NCBI GenBank assembly: GCA_019096065.1
Contig: JAGUCH010000006.1
Coordinates: 3,864,001 to 3,928,000 of the forward strand
Source of the DNA: Paracyclopina nana
Lineage: Eukaryota > Arthropoda > Copepoda > Cyclopoida > Cyclopettidae
Direction: 5' to 3'
Length of the DNA stretch: 64,000 bases
The notes beneath the pieces were generated by a model that made no database searches, had not been told where the DNA came from, and worked only from the letters and a program-made list of their open reading frames with translations. Position numbers and translations under genes: made by a program. How positions within the stretch are numbered: position 1 is the stretch's first letter; each line of letters starts with the position of its first letter. Of this stretch, positions 26,781-56,800 are shown piece after piece.

Positions 26781-26923
26781 GCTGCAAAAATGCTCGCTAA
26801 AAGCAAGCAGCTACTGATAAACCCTAATCCGAGATAATAGTAGTAAAATGATAACAGCTAATTTATTACAGTACAATAAACATTTCACATCGGTCTTGAA
26901 AATAATGCTAGGTAGATACAACA

Positions 26924-29739
26924 TCAAAATTGTTGATGGTATTCGGGGTGGTCATGATTGCGTTGATCGTAGCCAGCATAGGCATCCTCGACACCACGAG
27001 CGTGGAGGTCGGCATAGTAGTGGTAAGGTTCGTAACGTTGGAAGTCCTGGTAGTCTCTGGAATTTTGGTAGCCTCTCCCACCTTGATGATGGCCCGCAGG
27101 GTAGTCATTGCTGTACTCATACCCTTGCAAGTAGTTGCTTCTTCCTTCGTTGTTGTCGTCTTCGGCGTAGTTGTAGTCGTCGTAGTTGTAGTCGTCGGCT
27201 CCTTCTGAGTTTCTAAAATTGCCATCGGGGCCTATTGGGTAGACTCCCCCGTAAGACATGGAACCTCCTCGTTTTTGGATGCTATGGTGTTCAGGCTGGT
27301 CGATCTCATAGAAGCCACCTCGGGGGCTAAGTTCGGGCACATCTGCTAGGGCAAATGATCGGGCAAAAAGGGAAGGGCCGTCTGAGTTCGCGTAAGATCT
27401 GGAAAACAGCCGTAGAGATGATTATGCATACTGACGAGTGGGGCATTATTATTTAAAGATAGAACCCGGAAAATGGGTGGTAGTAGCTGTACGAGTCGTC
27501 AGAGTCTGCGTAGTCCTCATCGGAGGACATGCGACCTCCAGTATCCTGCTTTGTCATGGGCTCGTGCGCAGTTGTGTATCGCACGGGCATGGCCTTTTCT
27601 GAGTAATTTGGGCGGCCTCGAGATCGGGTACGGGGTGGTTGCCCCCGCATATCTTTGTCCTTCTCTTTGCTGTCCCAAGACTTGTAGAATCCCCTGGCGT
27701 ATCCTTTAGTGTTGTCCTTTGGGTCTGACAAGTCTTGGTAGTATTTGACATTTTTGGGCTTTTGGGGCCGGGGCCTCGTGTATCTGTTACGGCTATTTTG
27801 CATTGGCTCGTCATGGTCATCGTGTGGCTCAGCAGGTACATAGTAGTTGGGCTCCTCTGTGCTGCTCCCATATTGGCCGATTTCCGTGCTGCTGGAGTAA
27901 TCCTCGTATTCCGGAGTGGACTCTTCCTGTAACGGGGGCTCGAAAGTGCGTGGCTTTGGCATGTCGTAGTTGTATCGCGGAGGAGGCTGCTTGGCCTTTT
28001 GCTCTTGCTCAAGAGCATAATTGTAGCCGTCGTAGTCTCCAAAATCTTCTTCGCCGTAATCGTCATTGTATTCATGCGCGTCGTTGTAGTCGTTATTGCT
28101 CGTCATCGGCGGTTGATTGTAGGTCCATTTGGTGGTAGTTGCCTCGGGAAAAGTGCGGCCATAATGTTGGGCCGGAGAAGTAACAGGAAGGCTGCGGCCA
28201 TAACCGCCGTGATGGTCGTCGTGCCCATATCCTCCACCGCCACCTTTTGAGGCCTTGCTTCCGTAATCACCTTTGTGGCCATAATGGCCCTTTTCCCCTT
28301 TGTGCGCATCATTGTGCGAGCCCTTCGAGTCGTAGCCTTTCTTGCCATGCTTGTCACCATAGTAGCCAGCCTTGTCCTTGCCTCCCTTGTACTTGCTTCC
28401 CTTGTTGCCTCCGTAGTAGCCTTTATAGCCTCCATACTTTTTATGGTAGCCCCCATTATCATACGAGTCGTAAAACTTGGTCTTCTTGCTGTACTCGTTT
28501 TTATGGTAGGTGTTCTTGAAGCCCTTCGTGTTGTGGCCCTTATGGTGGTGTCCTTTCTTTCCATATTTAGCTGCCTTGTGGCCTTTGTTGCCCTTCTTCA
28601 TGTCGCCGTAGTACTTCTTGGAATCGTTATGCCCCTTCTTCTGCGCTCCCTTCTTGTCAAAGTGTTTGCTCGTGTGGCTCTTGCCCTTCTTTCCGGACTT
28701 CTTCCCCTTGTAGCCCTTGTACCCGGAGCTGCCTCCATAAGACTTGTGGCTGGAGCCCTTCTTCTTGGGCTTGTGGTATGAGGCCGCCATGACCATATCT
28801 TCGCCGTTACTGCAACGACAAAATCGAGATTTATTTTCACACATGACGAGCAGCTGGCATCGATCATCGCAATTATTCTGAGGTAGGATTGATTGATTGT
28901 GATTATCTAGGGGAGGTTGCCTTGAATGTACGAGGCCATCTCGTTGACCCGGCCTCGAATGAAGTCAAGAAGTTGTGGCGTCACGCCGCCCAATCCAGCG
29001 GGCTCGTTCCCCGGAAAGTCTCGAAAGTCACGAGGATTTCGTATCACAGGTGGCTCAGGGTAGTATATGACTTTTTGGTAAATGGTGGGAAAATCGTAAG
29101 GGTTGTGGTGGTGGTGGTGGTCATCGTGGTGGTCGTCGTAGTCGATGTAGTGGTCGTGGTGAGGATCTGGAGCTTTGTAGGGATCGTGGTGGGAGCTGTG
29201 GTAGAAGTGGCTTTGCCTTGCTGGATGTGGGTACTCTTGGTATCCTTTGTCGTGATACTTTTCCGAGTTTTCATAGCTGTACTCTTCGTGATCCTCGTAG
29301 TAGTAATCGTCAAATCGACGGTTGAGCAAGTTTTGCCCGAATGAGAGTAGGCTTCGTTTCTTGCGGAGCCTTCTGACACCGAAGATTGCAACTATCTCTT
29401 CCTCCTCCTCTTCTTCTTCAATGACTCCATCCAAGTCCAGATTGAGTACAAGCATTTTACTGAAAGGAGCTCAGATGGTCCCGTACAGTCTCAATTTTCC
29501 GAGTTCTACCTCCGCTGCTGCTCTATAGTTTGCGCTACTTTTTTGAGTACTTACTCTATTCTGGATTCGGCCACGGCCATGTCCCCCTCTTCCTTGTTCT
29601 CATCCTCCTTAATTAGTGACTCTGGATCCCCTTTGGCTTTGCTGGGGTGCTTCTGAGTCGTTTCCAATTTCATGGAGGAGGCCAAATGGCCGCAAACTAG
29701 AAGGAGGCCAATTATAGTCACTCGTTTCATGATCTGCAC
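26924..29739 (-). CDS. Secreted low-complexity protein, isoform with distal terminal exon (T3)
   Basis: Proposed join of the signal-peptide exon 29555-29739 to 26924-27398 (219 aa). The first exon ends in phase 2 (..GA) at a strong gtaagt donor; the acceptor at 27399-27401 supplies one base and the frame runs on to a TGA at 26924. The product is rich in Tyr, Asp, Gly and His (for example GADDYNYDDYNYAEDDNN) and has a dibasic site in IQKRGG. A polyadenylation signal AATAAA lies at 26862-26867 (minus strand). Composition suggests an extracellular matrix or cuticle component. The splice join is inferred; this exon could belong to a separate gene with an unseen first exon. Confidence 0.55.
27453..29739 (-). 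CDS. Secreted low-complexity protein, isoform with middle terminal exon (T2), Gly/Lys/His/Tyr-rich
   Basis: Proposed join of 29555-29739 to 27453-28809 (513 aa). The acceptor gttgcag at 28810-28816 gives the same phase as the other two terminal exons. The N-terminal half is strongly basic, with repeated GYKG, GKKG, HKG and KYGG words; the stretch GHNTKGFKNTYHKNEYSKKT followed by FYD looks like a conserved core of insect cuticle-associated secreted proteins (from memory of the family, not a search). The C-terminal half is acidic and rich in Asp, Tyr, Pro and Ser. The stop is at 27453. No AATAAA lies before the next acceptor, only an AATAAT variant, so it may share the polyadenylation site of T3. 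Likely an extracellular matrix or cuticle protein. Confidence 0.65.
28907..29739 (-). CDS. Secreted His/Asp/Tyr-rich protein, isoform with proximal terminal exon (T1)
   Basis: Exons 29555-29739 and 28907-29459 (245 aa). The first exon encodes a signal peptide (MQIMKRVTIIGLLLVCGHLA) and a Lys/Glu-rich segment and ends at a gtaagt donor. The second exon starts in matching phase, and encodes an acidic run, a strong furin-type site RRLRKKRS, then a His/Asp/Tyr-rich stretch (DDHHDDHHHHHNPYDF) that could bind metal ions (inference), and ends with a predicted helical tail. A polyadenylation signal AATAAA lies at 28830-28835, 72 bases past the stop and just before the acceptor of the next terminal exon. 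Best supported of the three isoforms because it is a simple two-exon gene with an 95-bp intron. Confidence 0.75.
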
Positions 29740-32107
29740 TTGGAGCTGACCACTGGATCACTGATTGGTTTCCTCCGGTGTGCTACTGACTTTTATAGTT
29801 TAGCGCTGAAGAATGATCCTTGACTCATTCTGCCATTTTCACGCACAACGAGAAATTAGATTACTGTTACAGCGAAGGATGAGTTTGCAGATCCTAATTT
29901 TATAGCCTCATCTGTGCAACTTGTATAGCCATGAAATTAATTACCACCAAATCTTAACGACTTATAAAGCTTGAAAACACCCTTTTGGATATCAGTACAG
30001 TAAGTAAGCATATTTTTATAAGAGTGACTTACTGTGACCATTCGAGCTTTTTTTTCGAGCTGAAATGCAACTACTTCAGAAACGAAGAAAATGTGAGCAA
30101 ATGTCACTTGAGTGAACTATTGCAGTTTCACTGGTGCAAGGCAAAATGACATGAGCAGGAAATTTCTAATGTGTCATCAAGTGGTCAAGGTCTTGGCCAT
30201 GGGATTTTCAGCTTTGCTAGAATTTTCTGATTAGTTAATCATATTACAACATTTCAAGGCTCACTGTTAGGTCAATAGCTTTTTTAACCAATGTGCTACA
30301 ATTAATTATGTTGGGATTTTGTATATATGTTTTAGGGTTTTCTATCTCGTTTGACTAATACGTTATTAAATCAATACTTGCCCAATACTGTTTACTGACT
30401 AATTAATATTTTAGCTCTCTCTTTTAAGTGGAATAGGTAAATAACGAACCAATCTCAGACTTTGATATTTATGCACCCAATTAAAGTTCATATTTCTACC
30501 TTATGGCTTAAATAATGAATAGAAGCCTTTACATTCATGTCGAGGACATCAAGATTATGAAAGTGGGTCACGCTCGCAAACCTTAAAAATAAGAGGCCTC
30601 TATTCTCCCTGTAGCTACCTAGAGCCACTGAAATTCTAAGAAATATAATTGTTATAAATTAAAAAAATCATTTTTGATTGTTGTCTGAATTCAGATAACA
30701 TAGTGGCTTAGAACTCTTTTATTTCTCCTGATCTTTGTCCTGTAGTAATGTTGATTGCCATAAAAATGCACACGTCAAAAAGAACTATTTAATCATTATG
30801 CATGTTGAATGCTCACCCTGCATGGATAGGAGAAAGGCAAGTGCAATGTTACTTGGTATAAGGGAGGTTTTCTTCAAAGCAGAGAATTGCAGTCCGAGCT
30901 CAGTCGCTGGCTTTTCCCTGGGAAAGGTACAACTTTCCATGTCATGAGAATCGGCTGGAAAGTTGTTCGGTTATTTCGTATTGCAGAAAAAACTACTATA
31001 CTTAGCCATGCTGACGTCCGTTTTCAGCCCCCCCTCAAACTTGACTCCCCAATTCGGGGGTCAACAGCTCGAAATCGATTGCCAACCTTCGCTAAGGCCA
31101 ACTAAAAAGGTAAAATAACCTTTGTGCGTATCTATCAGCCAGAGTACACACAAGTGCCAAAATTAGCCAGAAGAGTCACTTCTTCGCGTGACCTTTCAAA
31201 AAAGATGATTTTTCTCCATATCTACAAGGAGAATCTAGCTCGTGTATCCATCATGGCTTAATAACTATTTTACAATATGTTATATCATTTTTACCGACTG
31301 CCTTCTAAACACTTCGATTGTTTAGCAGCAATAATTTTGTATCGATTTTACGAGCTGTTCTGTTTCTATGCAAGATGTTGCCTTGCTTGCATGCATAAGC
31401 CCTGTTAACGTAAAAAAATGGCATAATAACAAGCTCACCCACTTTCTGTATTCCAGATTTATTTTGTGGCTTTGCTATGAATTCTAAATGAAGCCATTGC
31501 TGTAAATTGTCCATCATTGCCAAATCAACTCGCTAACGCATATCAAATAAGTTAATATTAGAAGAAAATTGTGATGAAAAGTTAGTGTATCAATGTCGTT
31601 AGTGGAACCATAACAACAAAGTTGCTATATTATGGGCCCGTACATAGAAAAGTAGCACATGCTCAATACACGTAGCATATAGGCTTTTAGTTAGTACATA
31701 GGCATGCTTATTTTATTATGTGCCTTTCTTTTTGCTCGCAAACCTACGAAACAAGGAGCTTATACAGTATATAGTGGTAGGCCCGCGCGTTTCCTTTATA
31801 CTTTATGTTCCCCATGCATAAGTCATGCATACTCGCGTATTAGTCTACGATTTGGTCTTCGTTTGGCCGCAGCCCACTTCGATATTCACAATGAAGCCTT
31901 GAAAGCAGTATTTCCGCTTGGCCTTGGCTGCTACATGATAGTAGCTGCAAAAAGTAGGAGTTGTAGCTTGCCACTTGCTTTTGGTTGAAGGACAAGGCCG
32001 CCGAAAAAAGAGGTTTAGTATACAAAGGCTGTGTGACGACAATGATGGTGTGACAAGTTGGCAATTCACGAAAGGCCAAATGAACATGCAGGGGGTTCTT
32101 TGACGCT
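29740..32107. other. Intergenic region upstream of the secreted-protein locus and of the CCDC92-like gene
   Basis: About 2.4 kb of AT-rich DNA between divergent genes. No coding sequence, tRNA or clear transposon is seen. A short inverted repeat (ACAGTAAGT / ACTTACTGT) lies near 29997-30040. Promoters of both flanking genes should be at its ends. Confidence 0.4.
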
Positions 32108-33725
32108 ATGAGTCTCTCCACGACCACTGTTCACACAGAAGCGACAACCCTCAAGGTGAAGCTTCCAATGCTATGAATTGCGTTTGGCTGGCTATAAGAG
32201 TCCAGTTTTGTTTTGCAAGAGTCCATTAAAATAATTGTGCATTTTTCCAGCTTCGTCAAGTGCCAAGTGGAAACAAGGCTGGCGTGAGTAACAATGGTTC
32301 TAGATCAAATTCCACCTCACGGAGGTCATCATCAAGAGCTTCTTCATCCACGAGGTCACAATCAAATCAAGCAAAATACAGTGCGCAAGAAATAGCCGAT
32401 TATGAAAGTAGGATTGCATTTATACATAAGCAGCATGAAAAAATGCTATTTGCACTACATAATGAGGTGGAAGAGCTTAAAAGAAAGAACAAAGGTAGGT
32501 GAATGCATGCACTTTTTCCCAGGTCATTGATATCATCGTGACCCCTTTTCCAGACCTGCAATTTCAACTTGTGTTGTCATCCTCATCCAAGCCAAGTAAT
32601 GATCCGAATTTTTCTGTGGTGGAAATCATTGAGAGCAATAGTGCACCAGTTGGTGGTGCTGCAATTGTCCTTGCCCCCGAAGAAGCAATCAAATTGGAGG
32701 AACTTGAGGCTGTCATGAAACAATTACAAGCTGACCTTCATGAAGCTAGATCCAGAAATATTTACCTCTCTGGCCTGCTTGAGGACCAAAAGAGGTTATA
32801 TAGCCTGCTATTTAGCATTATGCAGGTGTATTGTTACACACAAATTACTTATTGCAGGAGATTGGAGGAGTATGAGCTTAAAGAAACGGTGGAAAAGGTT
32901 GTGAAGAAAACATCGACGACCACTTTTCCAATGTCACCTCCATGTGGCAGTGGCATGTCAATGGCTTCTTCTGCCTCATCCACCAAAGTTAGCACTCCCA
33001 TACCAAAGAGATCACGGTCCGAAGATAGGCTGAAAATGAAAGAAATTGAGATTGAAAGGCTGCAAATGGATAACATTCGACAACGCCAAGAGGTTGTAAA
33101 ATTGCCAGCTCTTTGCTAATGAATGCGATGAGTGATTAGTTTCTTTCAGCTGCTAGAACTGAAGCTTTTTCTGGAAAGAAATGTCAAGCTGAAATTCAGA
33201 GGATGCAATCACCCTACAAGGCTGCTTCATAGACCCCAAAGACAAAACAGCAATCCAGACTACTTTAGAGACCGTCTAGGATCTTCCATGACCTCACTGG
33301 ACAGAGTCGACCTAATACGTGATAGCTCCAGGAGTAATTCTTTGAGCCAATTGCCCACAATAAAGCACAAGACTAGCACTCACCCTCCTCCCTCACGACA
33401 AAGGTAGTGAATATGCTATTTATTATTATGGTGTTATTTTTCTTATTACTTTCCCCCTACTTTTAGCTTTCACGATGGACTGCCACCGGTACCAGGAAGC
33501 AGTGGTAGTGAATCATCAATGGCATCCATGTCGATGTCCATGAAACCAAGAGCACCCCCATTGAACCTGGTATCACTCAGAGAAGAAAATGAGTTTGAAA
33601 GGAAAAGTGTTTCCAAGAGGAGAATGAAGCTCAAAAATTCTGTGATGATGCCCTCGCAATTGTTCAGAAAAAGAGATATCGCCAGAATGGAGACTAATTC
33701 AAAGAGCGATCGCTTCAATAAATGA
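32108..33725 (+). CDS. CCDC92/CCDC74-like coiled-coil protein, 6 exons
   Basis: Exons: 32108-32155, 32251-32494, 32554-32794, 32858-33092, 33150-33403, 33467-33725 (426 aa, phases consistent). The start ATG at 32108 opens MSLSTTTVHTEATTLK before a good donor; later in-frame starts are possible. A Ser/Arg-rich stretch is followed by the helix YESRIAFIHKQHEKMLFALH then EVEELKRKNKDLQFQL, the pattern of the CCDC92/CCDC74 N-terminal coiled coil. Two more coiled coils follow (EEAIKLEELEAVMKQLQADL; KEIEIERLQMDNIRQRQELL). The tail is Ser/Pro-rich and basic. Relatives act at centrioles, cilia and spindle microtubules. An AATAAA overlaps the stop codon at 33717 and another lies at 33957. Confidence 0.75.
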
Positions 33726-37728: not shown

Positions 37729-38344
37729 CTTGTATCAGTGATATAGGGACTTTCGAAAAAGAAAATTTAAGGACAAAGTTGTTGTTCTTTTACCGGAAAC
37801 GGAGAGAAAAATTCAGTTGATGTTTTTGTTGAAAACAGAAAATGAAAAAACATTATTTTTTATAGTCTGCAAAATGAGAAAAACTGTATTTATTATCGCC
37901 AAAGTATGCTATTTACACTATTCAGAGTTTTTAATCTTCTTTTGAGCCCCATTCAGCATAAATGCTTTTGATAATAAAGACATTTCATATCGCATGTTGT
38001 TACGTCACATAGAAGCTGTTGCATATTTTATTGGGCAACTTTGTCACATTTATATTCTGTGTCTCTTAAAAGAATAACTTATTAGTGTGCTTTGAGACAA
38101 TTTCATGATTATAACCAAGCAATCAGCCATCTTAATTATTATTTGTAATAATTTTCGACTGTAATAATCAAGAGAAGCCTTATAACGAAAGCTGGACTCA
38201 GTTTTCGATCCGGTCAAAATCCAGCATTGCGCAGTTGAGCACGAGTACAAAACAAAACAAATCACAACGTGGTTGACGCTCACTGAACGCACACGTTTCT
38301 TGAGATATAAACTTGGTCGTTTTTACAGATTGGAAAGAAACACC
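37729..38344. promoter_or_regulatory. Divergent promoter region between RpLP0 and the Nopp140-like gene
   Basis: 616 bp between two start codons facing away from each other. On the RpLP0 side, a pyrimidine-rich 5' end (TTTTTCTCTCCGTTTCCG, 37794-37811 minus strand) followed by a gtaaaa donor, with an acceptor-like CAAG just before the ATG, suggests a TOP-type first exon and a 5' UTR intron. On the Nopp140 side, tttttacag at 38321-38329 may be a 5' UTR acceptor. Both genes serve ribosome production, so a shared control region would make sense (inference). Confidence 0.5.
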
Positions 38345-40080
38345 ATGGCTGAAGAAAAGCCCACGCTGAATGCTCTTGTCTTCGACTACCTGAAATCGGT
38401 GTCAAACAAGCTTGCCAAGCAATTCAAGAAGGATGTCGGCACTGAGATTGCCGAGTTACCAGCTGGCTCTCCTTCAATCCCTGAAATGGTGGCTCACTTC
38501 CACCAGTCGGGCGGCGCCAAACGCAAGCTCGCAGACTCTCTCAGCAACGGTTCAACTCCTGCCAAGAAGTTGAAGATGAACGGCAAGGCTGCCACCAACG
38601 GCAAGGCCAAGAAGGCCAACTCGGAGGACTCTGACGAGGATAGCAGTGAAGAGGAGGAGGCACCGAAGAAGGTGGCGGCTCCCGCTGCCAAAGCCGCAGC
38701 CAAGGATGATTCCTCAGAAGATTCAGATGATGACAGCGAAGAAGAGGCCAAGCCCGCCGAGAAAAAGGCTGTCACTAATGGCAAGGCCAACGGCAAGGCC
38801 AATGGCAAGGCTAAAAAAGATGAATCCTCAAGCGAAGAGGACTCTGATGATGATGATGACAAACCAGCCCAAAAGTCGTCACCCGCTAAAAAAGTAGAGC
38901 CAGCCAAGAAGAAGGAGGAAAGCTCCGATGATTCCGATGAGGAGGACTCTAGCGACGATGACAAACCTGCCGCGAAGAAGGCCGAAGCTGCTAAGAAACC
39001 AGAGGCCAAGAAAGATGAAAGCTCTTCAGATGAAGATGATTCTGATGATGATGAGAAAGCCAAGCCGGCTGCTGCGAAAAAGGCTGAAAAGAAGGAAGAG
39101 AGCGAAGAGGATTCCAGCGATGACGATGATGACGAGGAAGAGGAGGCTAAGAAGCCGGCTGCCAAAAAGGTAGAGAAGAAAAAGAAGGAAGAGAGTAGCT
39201 CTGACGAGGAAGACTCGGACGATGAGAAAACAGAGAAGCCAAAGAAGAAAGAGGCTGAAAAGAAAGAAGAATCTGACGATGAGGATTCTAGTGATGACGA
39301 AGAAGAAGAGGAGAAGCCCAAGAAGAAGAAGGGAAAGAAAGAGGAAGAGAAAATGGAAGTCGATGAAGAGGAAGATGAAACGATCGAGTTTGATAATACA
39401 CCAAAGCGTGCTGGTTTCGGATTCAAGAACGACAACCAAAGCCCAGCTCGGGGTAGAGGTCGCGGCCGCGGTAATGACCGTGGTGGCCGTGGAGGCCGTC
39501 AGTCTGGCGGCTCTGGTTGCTTCAAATGTGGCGAAGAAGGTCACATGTCCAGAGAATGTCCAAATGCGAGCGCAGGTGGCGGCGGAAACGGAGGTTGCTT
39601 CAAATGCGGCGAAAATGGCCATTTCTCCAGAGAGTGTCCCAATGCCAGCTCAGGTGCTGGTGGTGGCGGCAACTGTTTCAAATGCGGCGAGGCTGGTCAC
39701 TTCTCCAGAGAGTGCCCTAAGGGTGGTGGAGACAAATGCTTCAACTGCCAAGGAGAGGGACACATTTCTCGTGACTGCCCTGAGAAGAGGAAAATGACTT
39801 GTTACAATTGCAATGAAGATGGTCACATGTCCAGAGAATGCCCCAAGGGAGGTAGCCCTGGTAGGGGAGGCCGTGGAGGACCACGTGGTGGAGGTAATAA
39901 TGTGGCAACAATTCATGCTGTATAGTGAAATTAATGAGTGTTTTGTTTTAAGGACGTGGTCGTGGAGCTGGTGGCCGTGGAGCTCCCAGGGGTGCACCCA
40001 GGGGAGGTCGTGGCGGTATGAGGATCGACACAGCATCAAGTGGAACTGGTGCCAACAAAAAGAAGTCATTTGATGAATAG
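38345..40080 (+). CDS. Nopp140: Nopp140-like nucleolar protein fused to five CCHC zinc knuckles and RGG tail
   Basis: Exons: 38345-39893 and 39953-40080 (558 aa). The start ATG sits in CACCATGG. Residues 1-60 form a LisH-like helical start (LNALVFDYLKSVSNKLAKQF). Residues ~100-360 are alternating Ser/Asp/Glu-rich acidic blocks and Lys/Ala/Pro-rich basic blocks, the classic Nopp140/SRP40 arrangement of CK2 sites. Then come RGRGRG/GGRGG motifs and five CCHC knuckles (CFKCGEEGHMSREC and four similar), as in CNBP/vasa-type nucleic-acid binders, and a terminal RGG segment ending SGTGANKKKSFDE. It should act in the nucleolus as an snoRNP or Pol I chaperone that also binds single-stranded nucleic acid. 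The intron 39894-39952 is 59 nt; retention would end the protein at an in-frame TAG. AATAAA near 40243. Confidence 0.88.
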
Positions 40081-53811: not shown

Positions 53812-56800
53812 TTACCCGCTGCGGCCTCCTCTCAGAATGAGGTCGGAGGCCTTCTCGCCTATCATATAGCAGGCAGCTTGCGTGTTCCCGCTTATCAGCG
53901 TGGGCATGATCGAGGTGTCAGCCACTCGGAGTCCTTGGATGCCAAAGACTCTTAATTGGTTGTCCACTACAGCCTCGGGATCTGACGGCGGGCCCATCTT
54001 GCAAGTGCCAATGTCGTGGTACACTGTGTAGCTGAAATGCCTCATGATGCATTCCCAGTAGCTATCAGTGAATGGCGCATTTTTCGAGGCGCAGGCCGGA
54101 TTGGGCTTGGCAAACATGCGAGCTCCAAATTTTTCAAACACTCCAGACTTGGCAACCAAGTCAATGCTTCGTTTGATGCCCTCGGTTAGTGCCAATACGT
54201 CTCTGCGGTCGCCGAAATGATTAGCTCTAATGATGGGCTTTCTAAAGGGGTCATTAGTGCGAAGGCTGATTCTGCCTTTGCTGTATGGGTGCAGTAGGTA
54301 CGGCAATAGTGTGAATCCCTCCTTGCTATTGAGGCTGTCGAAATGTTTGAAGTACGACTCTTTCATGTTGATACTGTTCCGGTAGAGAAGTCCGCCATCG
54401 GAATTAACGTGGAGGCCTGAAATTGCACAAGAAAGAATCTGGCGATATAAGAAAAGTTTCCTGTGATGCTAGTGCTTTGTAACCAGACAAAAAAAAATAA
54501 CCTCGATTGATCAAGTGAATCGATCACAAAGTTCTTCTTTCTAATGCGGAAAGCAGATGTGATTTTAATTTTCATGAAGGTACTTTTAGTGCCCACTCGT
54601 CTAAAAAAAATCTAGTGCTTCCTTAGTCCACTTTAAACAGATTTTATCCTCAAACTGTTTAATGTACCCTATAAGGTCAACCCAACGAGAATTTTAGTTA
54701 CCGATTCGGGTCTGAATAGTACCCGAAGTGGCAAAATGAGCTTTTTGAGAGCTTTTTATTAATGAATACTTCTTGAGTGTTTGGGAGCAAATCAGGAACT
54801 TAAATATCAGTAACTCTTCATCTAGTATTCTGCATGAAAAGTTCTTGAATGTTTGTGAACTATTCAAGAGGTTTAATTCAGTAACTTTACAAGCACAGAT
54901 ACTTCTTGAACACTCAAGAACTATTCAGTCACTTTTATATGGTAACTTTTCAAGTATGAATACTTCATGATCAATCAAGAGCTATTCAGGGAGACATTGT
55001 TTAATAACTTTTCATGAATGAAGACTTCTTGAATGCTCAAGAACTATTCAGAAACTTATGTCTGGTAGCTTTTCAAGTATGAACACTTCATGATCACCTG
55101 AGAACTTTTCATGAACATTTTTTTCAGTGGCTTTTCAAGTATGAATGCTTCTTGACCACTAAAGAACTATTCATTAACATTTATTTGGTAACTTTTCATG
55201 AATTCATTCTCTGCTTGCTAATTCAAGAACTAATCAGAGACTTTCTTTCAGCAACTATTCAAACATAAATACTTCTTGATCGCTCAATTAGTGATCAAGA
55301 AAATATGCTCAGTAATTTTCAAACTTGAATGCTTCATGACCAATTAAGGACTATTCAGGGACTTTCATTTCAGTAACTCTTCAGCTAAAAAACTGCATAG
55401 TCATTTATTGACAAATTTTTGGACTTAGAAAATTTCTAACTGCTTTAATAAGGTATGGTAGCTCCATCTGTTGTATTTTTGCAAGAATATAAATAGTAAA
55501 ATGAAGACATAACATGGAGATCTTCAGTGGTCTAGAGGCAAGACACCGGATTCCTAACCTGAGGTTCATGGGTTCAAATCCTCCCTGGGCAACTCTTTCT
55601 TACCAGCTTTCTAACTTTCTTTCCTTCATACAATAACATCCACTATAAGCATTACCACTGAATTCATAATGAATTAGAAAGTAAAAATTACCACAACTAG
55701 TTAAGTTTTGAAATGAAAATGTCTCCTTGAATATTTACTGAATATCAATTAATTAAAGCTCCTGAATAGTTATCATTGTTGTATTCATGTATAACAACCA
55801 AAAAGTTAACGAAAGTGCTCAAGAGCTTATCAAGGGGTATCTGTAGACAAATTTCAAGTAACATACATGAACAATATAGGGCGTTCTCATATTGGACTTT
55901 AGCTTACCAAAACCTGATTTTGGTTAACCAAAAACTGGTTTTAGGCAAGCGCTATGTAGTGCCTACCTACCGAAAACAGGTTTTTGGTTAACCAAAATCA
56001 GGTTTTGGTAAGTTAAAGTCCAATATGAGAACGCCCTTATATGATTGATTATTATTAAGCTATCATGAACCATTCAGACTCTCAGTATAAGATTCCGTCA
56101 CCGAATTTCTCCCTACTCATGAACTTATGAAGATACCTTTCATTCTCGAATATTTCCTGAATACTAACTGAATATTTCAAAAAAGTTCTCGTTGGGAAGT
56201 GCCCCTTCGCTTTTTATAAAATGCCATAGCAAAGCCAAAATAACAATTCTAACTTTTCTAGCAAATATGAACCACTTTTGTGAGAAAAATAGCAAAAATC
56301 TAATATGCTACTACGGCATACACACTAAACTGTACGTTTCTCGAGGCAAGCTTGCAGGCAAAAGTTGCACTTCCTTATGATGCATCACTCTCGTGCGCCG
56401 CACAAACTTTTCAAAACTCACCTAAAAACACAATGGCCACATCTGGCCAGGTCGTATTATATAACGCCCACTGTGTCCTGATGTTCCCAAAGGACTCAAA
56501 CCCTGACGGAGTTGCTAATGGGCCACGCCCGTTGATGAAGTAATTCAAAATATTCTTCGGGTCGATAAACCTCCTGGCTGGATTGAAAGCCACTGGTTTT
56601 TTCAAGGTGAAAATAACTTCACCGGTGCCAATGTGGCACTGGAGGTTGCCTCCAACCCCAGGAATGTTTTTCACCACCGGGACGCCCACTTGAAGCAAAT
56701 CAATGGCAGGGCCCACGCCTGACAGCATCAGAATTTGTGGGCTGGCAATGGATCCAGCGCTTAATATCACTTCAGAGTTGGCATATGCGTAGGAGACATC

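Follow-up and report, generated by a model that had tools for sequence, protein, structure and literature searches.

We analyzed a 64,000-nucleotide stretch of the genome of the copepod Paracyclopina nana (contig JAGUCH010000006.1 of GenBank assembly GCA_019096065.1, forward-strand positions 3,864,001 to 3,928,000), hereafter the window, in which a leader exon and three downstream reading frames lie in close succession on the minus strand. The coding part of the leader exon, E1 (29555 to 29730), begins with the predicted signal peptide MKRVTIIGLLLVCGHLASS, continues into a charged pro-segment, and ends in phase 2 before the donor GTAAGT (29549 to 29554). Three tails follow: E2 (28907 to 29459), rich in His, Asp, Tyr, and Glu; E3 (27453 to 28809), which encodes a protein with the DUF4779 domain; and E4 (26924 to 27398), rich in Tyr, Asp, and Gly. 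Exon-by-exon translation from 29730 to 26924 shows that joining E1 to the acceptors at 29459, 28809, and 27398 opens 183, 451, and 157 full codons, respectively, each run ending in a stop, and gives proteins of 242, 510, and 216 amino acids without internal stops. An earlier reading of the same DNA, the original prediction, had proposed this arrangement, and its coordinates, donor, acceptors, phases, and stops were reproduced exactly. It is likely that the locus is a single gene with a choice of three 3' splice sites for its leader exon, yielding three secreted proteins.

The splice sites were scored with a matrix of generic frequencies. The donor at 29554 scores 6.84 and ranks third among the 83 GTs between 29800 and 26901, while the acceptors of E4, E3, and E2 score 8.96, 8.11, and 6.18, ranking first, third, and fifth among 226 AGs. 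As a reference, we used 13 introns of CCT/TCP1 genes in the same genome, whose acceptors have a median of 7.9 (range 1.1–10.4) and whose donors lie between 4.7 and 12.1. Because the splice matrix itself, together with reading frame and profile position, served to place these introns, their scores lean high; one doubtful placement (L028; profile 280/278, acceptor 1.1) was retained among the 13, and a further locus (L033) was left out of the set. The intron between E1 and E2 would be 95 nt long, and the reference introns measure 52 to 71 nt in 11 of 13 cases, with the other two at 239 and 756 nt. Only 97 nt separate E2 from E3, and 54 nt E3 from E4, which leaves little space for a further first exon or promoter. 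Splice matrices trained on the window and its 264-kb surroundings drifted, ranked poor sites high, and were dropped.

The middle tail belongs to a known family. E3 matches DUF4779 (PF16009) with 87 bits against a Pfam cut-off of 27 (E = 1.8e-24), and this near-full match, which covers profile positions 7 to 160 of 160, is its likeness to DUF4779 proteins. The domain (28320 to 28781) starts about 10 residues past the E3 junction and lies entirely within E3, and the match is the only one to this family found in the genome (91,952,342 bases in 10 contigs). For E2 and E4, Pfam gives no match at E ≤ 1, and neither E1+E2 nor E1+E4 has a match in NCBIfam. The original prediction had described all three tails as low-complexity proteins; the middle one is not an anonymous protein of this kind, as it contains DUF4779. 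It had also called them matrix-like, a putative function drawn from composition only; no cuticle or matrix family in Pfam is matched at E ≤ 1 by E1+E2, E1+E3, or E1+E4. In genome searches that scored only the best candidates, neither E2 nor E4 (E ≤ 1 for both), nor E1 combined with a portion of E3 (E ≤ 0.001), matched anything but itself. Relatives of the E3 tail were not found in viral contigs, and 17 pattern matches in prokaryote contigs yielded no confirmed relative. A comparison of the initial 138 residues of the E3 tail with solved structures gave no match at E ≤ 0.1.

The tails differ in composition, with Asp, Glu, Tyr, and His prominent in E2, Lys, Gly, and Tyr in E3, and Tyr, Gly, and Asp in E4, and cysteine is absent from all three. 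Shuffled sequences reached the pairwise score of the first and second tails in 28 of 400 trials and that of the second and third in 249 of 400, so that the earlier view of the tails as unrelated roughly holds; the likeness of the first and third tails (5 of 400) looks marginal and compositional. E2 carries the basic stretch RRLRKKR (29354 to 29374), which we take to be a furin-type site, and E4 has a single dibasic site, the KR in SIQKR-GG (27269 to 27274). Many KK pairs occur in E3. Motifs of the amidation type (G[KR][KR]) are absent from E2 and E4 and number four in E3, all GKK, which may reflect the Gly/Lys-rich composition of E3 alone.

Coding potential was assessed by in-frame hexamer scores, with 64 self-selected open reading frames (ORFs) of the region as the reference (5–95% range 0.21–0.45). 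The means for E1, E2, E3, and E4 are 0.206, 0.216, 0.323, and 0.234, respectively. The other two frames are negative for E1, E2, and E3, and the scores support coding for these three exons. Across the acceptors, the score rises from −0.198 to 0.243 at E2, from −0.193 to 0.270 at E3, and from −0.649 to −0.154 at E4. The E3 frame itself stays open for a further 155 nt 5' of the exon start (28964 to 28810), overlapping the end of E2, which is read in a different frame; over the 30 codons that precede the E3 acceptor, the score is a non-coding one (−0.193).

Between 27.4 and 37 kb of the window, two minus-strand ATG-initiated ORFs combine a hydrophobic start with a phase-2 donor scoring at least 4, namely E1 and an ORF at 32419 with a donor of 4.2 and a poor signal peptide by hydropathy. 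By this hydropathy heuristic, E1 appears to be the sole exon on this strand in that interval to combine a plausible signal peptide with a strong phase-2 donor. Its start is signal-peptide-like, with a best 9-residue hydropathy of 3.08, whereas none of the in-frame ATGs of the tails begins a likely signal peptide (best value 1.62). In E2 and E3, an ATG lies within eight codons of the acceptor, and the first in-frame Met of E4 is tail residue 48. Upstream of E1, the best placed of the TATA-like sites is TATAAAAG (29790 to 29797), and about 35 nt past its start lies ATCAGTG (29759 to 29765), an initiator-like sequence and the likely transcription start. Further TATA-like sites at 30020, 29904, and 29716, the last inside E1, have weaker initiator candidates. 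No pair of TATA box and initiator was found between the tails; the sole TATA-like site between E1 and the end of E4, at 28427, has no initiator candidate. To this extent, the sequence supports the original prediction.

If the tails were instead spliced together in succession, donors located in E2 or E3 ahead of their stops would join each to the next tail and give one or more longer proteins. We regard this as improbable. E3 does contain a phase-2 donor, at 28437, that could join the acceptor at 27398, and one reference donor scores about as low (4.7) as this site, which at 4.77 is the best in that phase. Moreover, runs of at least three adjacent same-strand ORFs are not unique to the locus: five others were listed in 264 kb, one of which is a second reading of the locus itself, and the remaining four, all of ORFs that reach their stops, are by inference largely ordinary exons. 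However, no donor within E2 scores above 2.24, a level to which none of the 13 reference donors falls, and neither of the two E2 donors scoring at least 2 is in phase 2. In E3, the highest-scoring pair of donors, at 28270 (8.13) and 28243 (5.0), are both in phase 1. In the last 30 codons before the stop, the coding score is 0.118 for E2 and 0.366 for E3, and it is this well-scoring end of E3 that splicing at 28437 would remove. With no alternative leader found and no good donor for chaining in E2, the proposal of a single leader exon with three in-phase acceptors is supported by the sequence.

Two canonical poly(A) signals accompany the tails. One AATAAA (28830 to 28835) follows the E2 stop inside the acceptor tract of E3, 26 nt ahead of the E3 exon start, and cleavage there would compete with splicing to E3 or E4. 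The other (26862 to 26867) lies 57 nt past the E4 stop and is likely common to the E3 and E4 messages. The sole signal-like sequence of E3 is an AATAAT at its stop, and the E3 message probably extends through E4. The proposal of three terminal exons therefore agrees with the signals of E2 and E4, and E3 departs from it. The arrangement is probably best described as three alternative 3' splice sites combined with two sites of polyadenylation, the 3' UTR of E3 containing E4.

In the mechanism that we propose, a single promoter just 5' of 29762 would drive the whole locus, and E1 would supply the signal peptide and the charged pro-segment to every product. Splicing to 29459 would produce an E1-E2 message ending near 28815 by way of the AATAAA at 28835, whereas splicing to 28809 would produce the DUF4779 protein and splicing to 27398 the E4 protein, both from messages ending near 26850 by way of the AATAAA at 26867. 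Splicing to E3 or E4 would have to compete with cleavage at the first poly(A) site, as has been proposed for genes of the calcitonin/CGRP type, and a transcript that used this site could not physically use the E3 acceptor as well. The basic sites in E2 and E4 would release the tail from the common pro-segment. It is also possible, though somewhat less likely than not, that the poly(A) signal of E2, embedded as it is in the tract before the E3 acceptor, acts as a built-in splice-or-cleave switch among three long, dissimilar, low-complexity secreted proteins, applying the calcitonin/CGRP logic to structural-type cargo instead of short hormones.

The short gaps (97 and 54 nt), the poly(A) signal just 5' of the E3 acceptor, and the ATGs within eight codons of the E2 and E3 acceptors would also suit an operon-like unit in which the tails are separate messages and a short leader is trans-spliced at the same acceptors. 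Nevertheless, the products of such a unit would have no signal peptide, the first in-frame Met of E4 is tail residue 48, and the position of the E1 donor, 95 nt before the E2 exon and in matching phase, weighs against it. Operons resolved by trans-splicing are also not usual for most arthropods. Taken together, this explanation is highly improbable.

Several observations weigh against a single gene with three alternative 3' splice sites. The match of phases alone is weak evidence, only modestly beyond chance. Among 93 ORFs of at least 150 codons in the 264 kb, locus excluded, 25 have a fitting acceptor for a phase-2 donor (score at least 6.18, within the first 170 nt), and the cube of this fraction gives 0.019 for three in-phase tails under the ORF-based null; the 1/27 quoted in the original prediction is thus roughly right as a phase-only figure. 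That each exon runs to its own stop does not discriminate either, because any ORF ends so. When joined to E1, 52 of 200 AGs 3' of the donor open at least 100 codons, as do four of the five acceptors scoring at least 6. One of these strong acceptors, 27926 (8.57), opens 123 codons in a frame other than that of E3, presumably by chance, and it falls outside the model, as does the strong acceptor at 27342. The splice matrix was generic rather than trained, and the reference introns were placed with it; under two of the drifted trained matrices, the donor and some of the three acceptors score low (28809 reaches −0.17 in one of them). The poly(A) signals fit the model and do not prove it, since dinucleotide shuffling of the E2-E3 gap also yields an AATAAA 151 times in 2000, and shuffling of the 80 nt that follow the E4 stop does so 73 times in 2000; E3 has no canonical AATAAA before E4. 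The promoter search covered TATA-type promoters only. Finally, E1, E2, and E4 have hexamer scores near the bottom of the reference range (5th percentile 0.210).

Of the three tails, E4 is the weakest, because its +1 frame reaches 0.202 against 0.234 for the proposed frame, and its first quarter is neutral (−0.008). These scores, and the 25 of 93 ORFs with a fitting acceptor by chance, leave some weight for a reduced set in which E1-E2 or E1-E3 is the gene and another tail, likeliest E4, represents a gene of its own, an exon in decay, or a frame kept open by codon composition. We consider this unlikely, although less so than the other alternatives. The E4 acceptor is the best of 226, the last three quarters of E4 score between 0.263 and 0.396, and an AATAAA follows 57 nt past its stop. 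In addition, no in-frame Met precedes tail residue 48.

Other features of the surrounding sequence were recorded. About 80 nt past the last AATAAA of the locus, the minus strand encodes a small protein (26780 to 26364) with a signal-peptide-like start, MRQLEKILLVFSAFCICQSF, whose only Pfam match, to Ivy (E = 0.017), does not reach the cut-off. On the plus strand, an ORF at 38186 to 39922 contains five CCHC zinc-knuckle stretches behind an acidic and Lys-rich region, and a 78-bp tandem repeat lies within it at 39515 to 39714. An imperfect tandem array with a unit of 61 to 123 bp occupies 54881 to 55287. Of the six contig ends inspected, four (L034, L035, L037, and L039; contigs C6, C1, and C9) carry TTAGG repeats with variant units, one (L036) has a CCTGG-type repeat, and one (L038) contains N in its first and last 90 bases. 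Repeats of the TTAGG type point to an arthropod genome.

The shared-leader architecture is established for secreted precursors, and what is new at this locus is the length, low complexity, and dissimilarity of the tails, one of which is a DUF4779 protein. The suggestion that such an architecture might be undescribed does not survive, as locust neuroparsin, gastropod FMRFamide, and calcitonin/CGRP share leaders likewise. The locus resembles these genes in that one leader exon has a donor phase compatible with several exons 3' of it, all of which run to stops of their own. Of its putative alternative last exons, E2 and E4 are followed by a canonical poly(A) signal, and E3 has AATAAT only. Neuropeptide and hormone precursors have a signal peptide and basic cleavage sites that release short, often amidated or repeated peptides. 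At the locus, the start of E1 is signal-peptide-like, basic sites occur in E2 and E4, and amidation-type motifs occur in E3 only, where they may be due to composition alone. Vertebrate CALCA, the calcitonin/CGRP gene, has two main outcomes, which are short peptides, whereas three outcomes and long tails are predicted here. CALCA is classed as coding-region alternative polyadenylation, and competition between splicing and polyadenylation is suggested for that class (PMC3647115).

Among arthropods, one paper describes five locust neuroparsin mRNAs with two leader exons in common, a locust myosuppressin whose exon 1 is joined with exon 2 or with exon 3, and termite calcitonin (PMC4237046). However, the neuroparsin tails are related, cysteine-bearing hormones, whereas the tails of the locus are mutually unlike, cysteine-free, and of low complexity, with one DUF4779 protein among them. 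Another paper reports that alternative FMRFamide mRNAs of the gastropods Lymnaea, Helix, and Haliotis share only the 5' exon, which in Haliotis is stated to encode the signal peptide, and that the two Lymnaea mRNAs are mutually exclusive per cell (PMC4208409). The FMRFamide gene yields sets of short peptides, whereas no such repeats were seen on reading the tails of the locus, although E3 has four Gly-Lys-Lys motifs. In the literature searched, no paper was found under the name DUF4779 or PF16009. Searches combining a shared signal peptide with cuticle, or alternative last exons with matrix and arthropod, returned no papers either; these were narrow phrase searches, and absence from print is not implied.

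The layout of the locus suggests that E2 and E4 could be overlooked or wrongly joined by standard gene prediction. If the predicted junctions are used, the DUF4779 gene of P. nana would be one outcome of a three-way choice, and the other two outcomes, together with the tissue that chooses each, would offer a direct handle on the function of DUF4779. Use of these junctions would further mean that shared-leader splicing, known from hormone genes, also serves long secreted proteins of low complexity.
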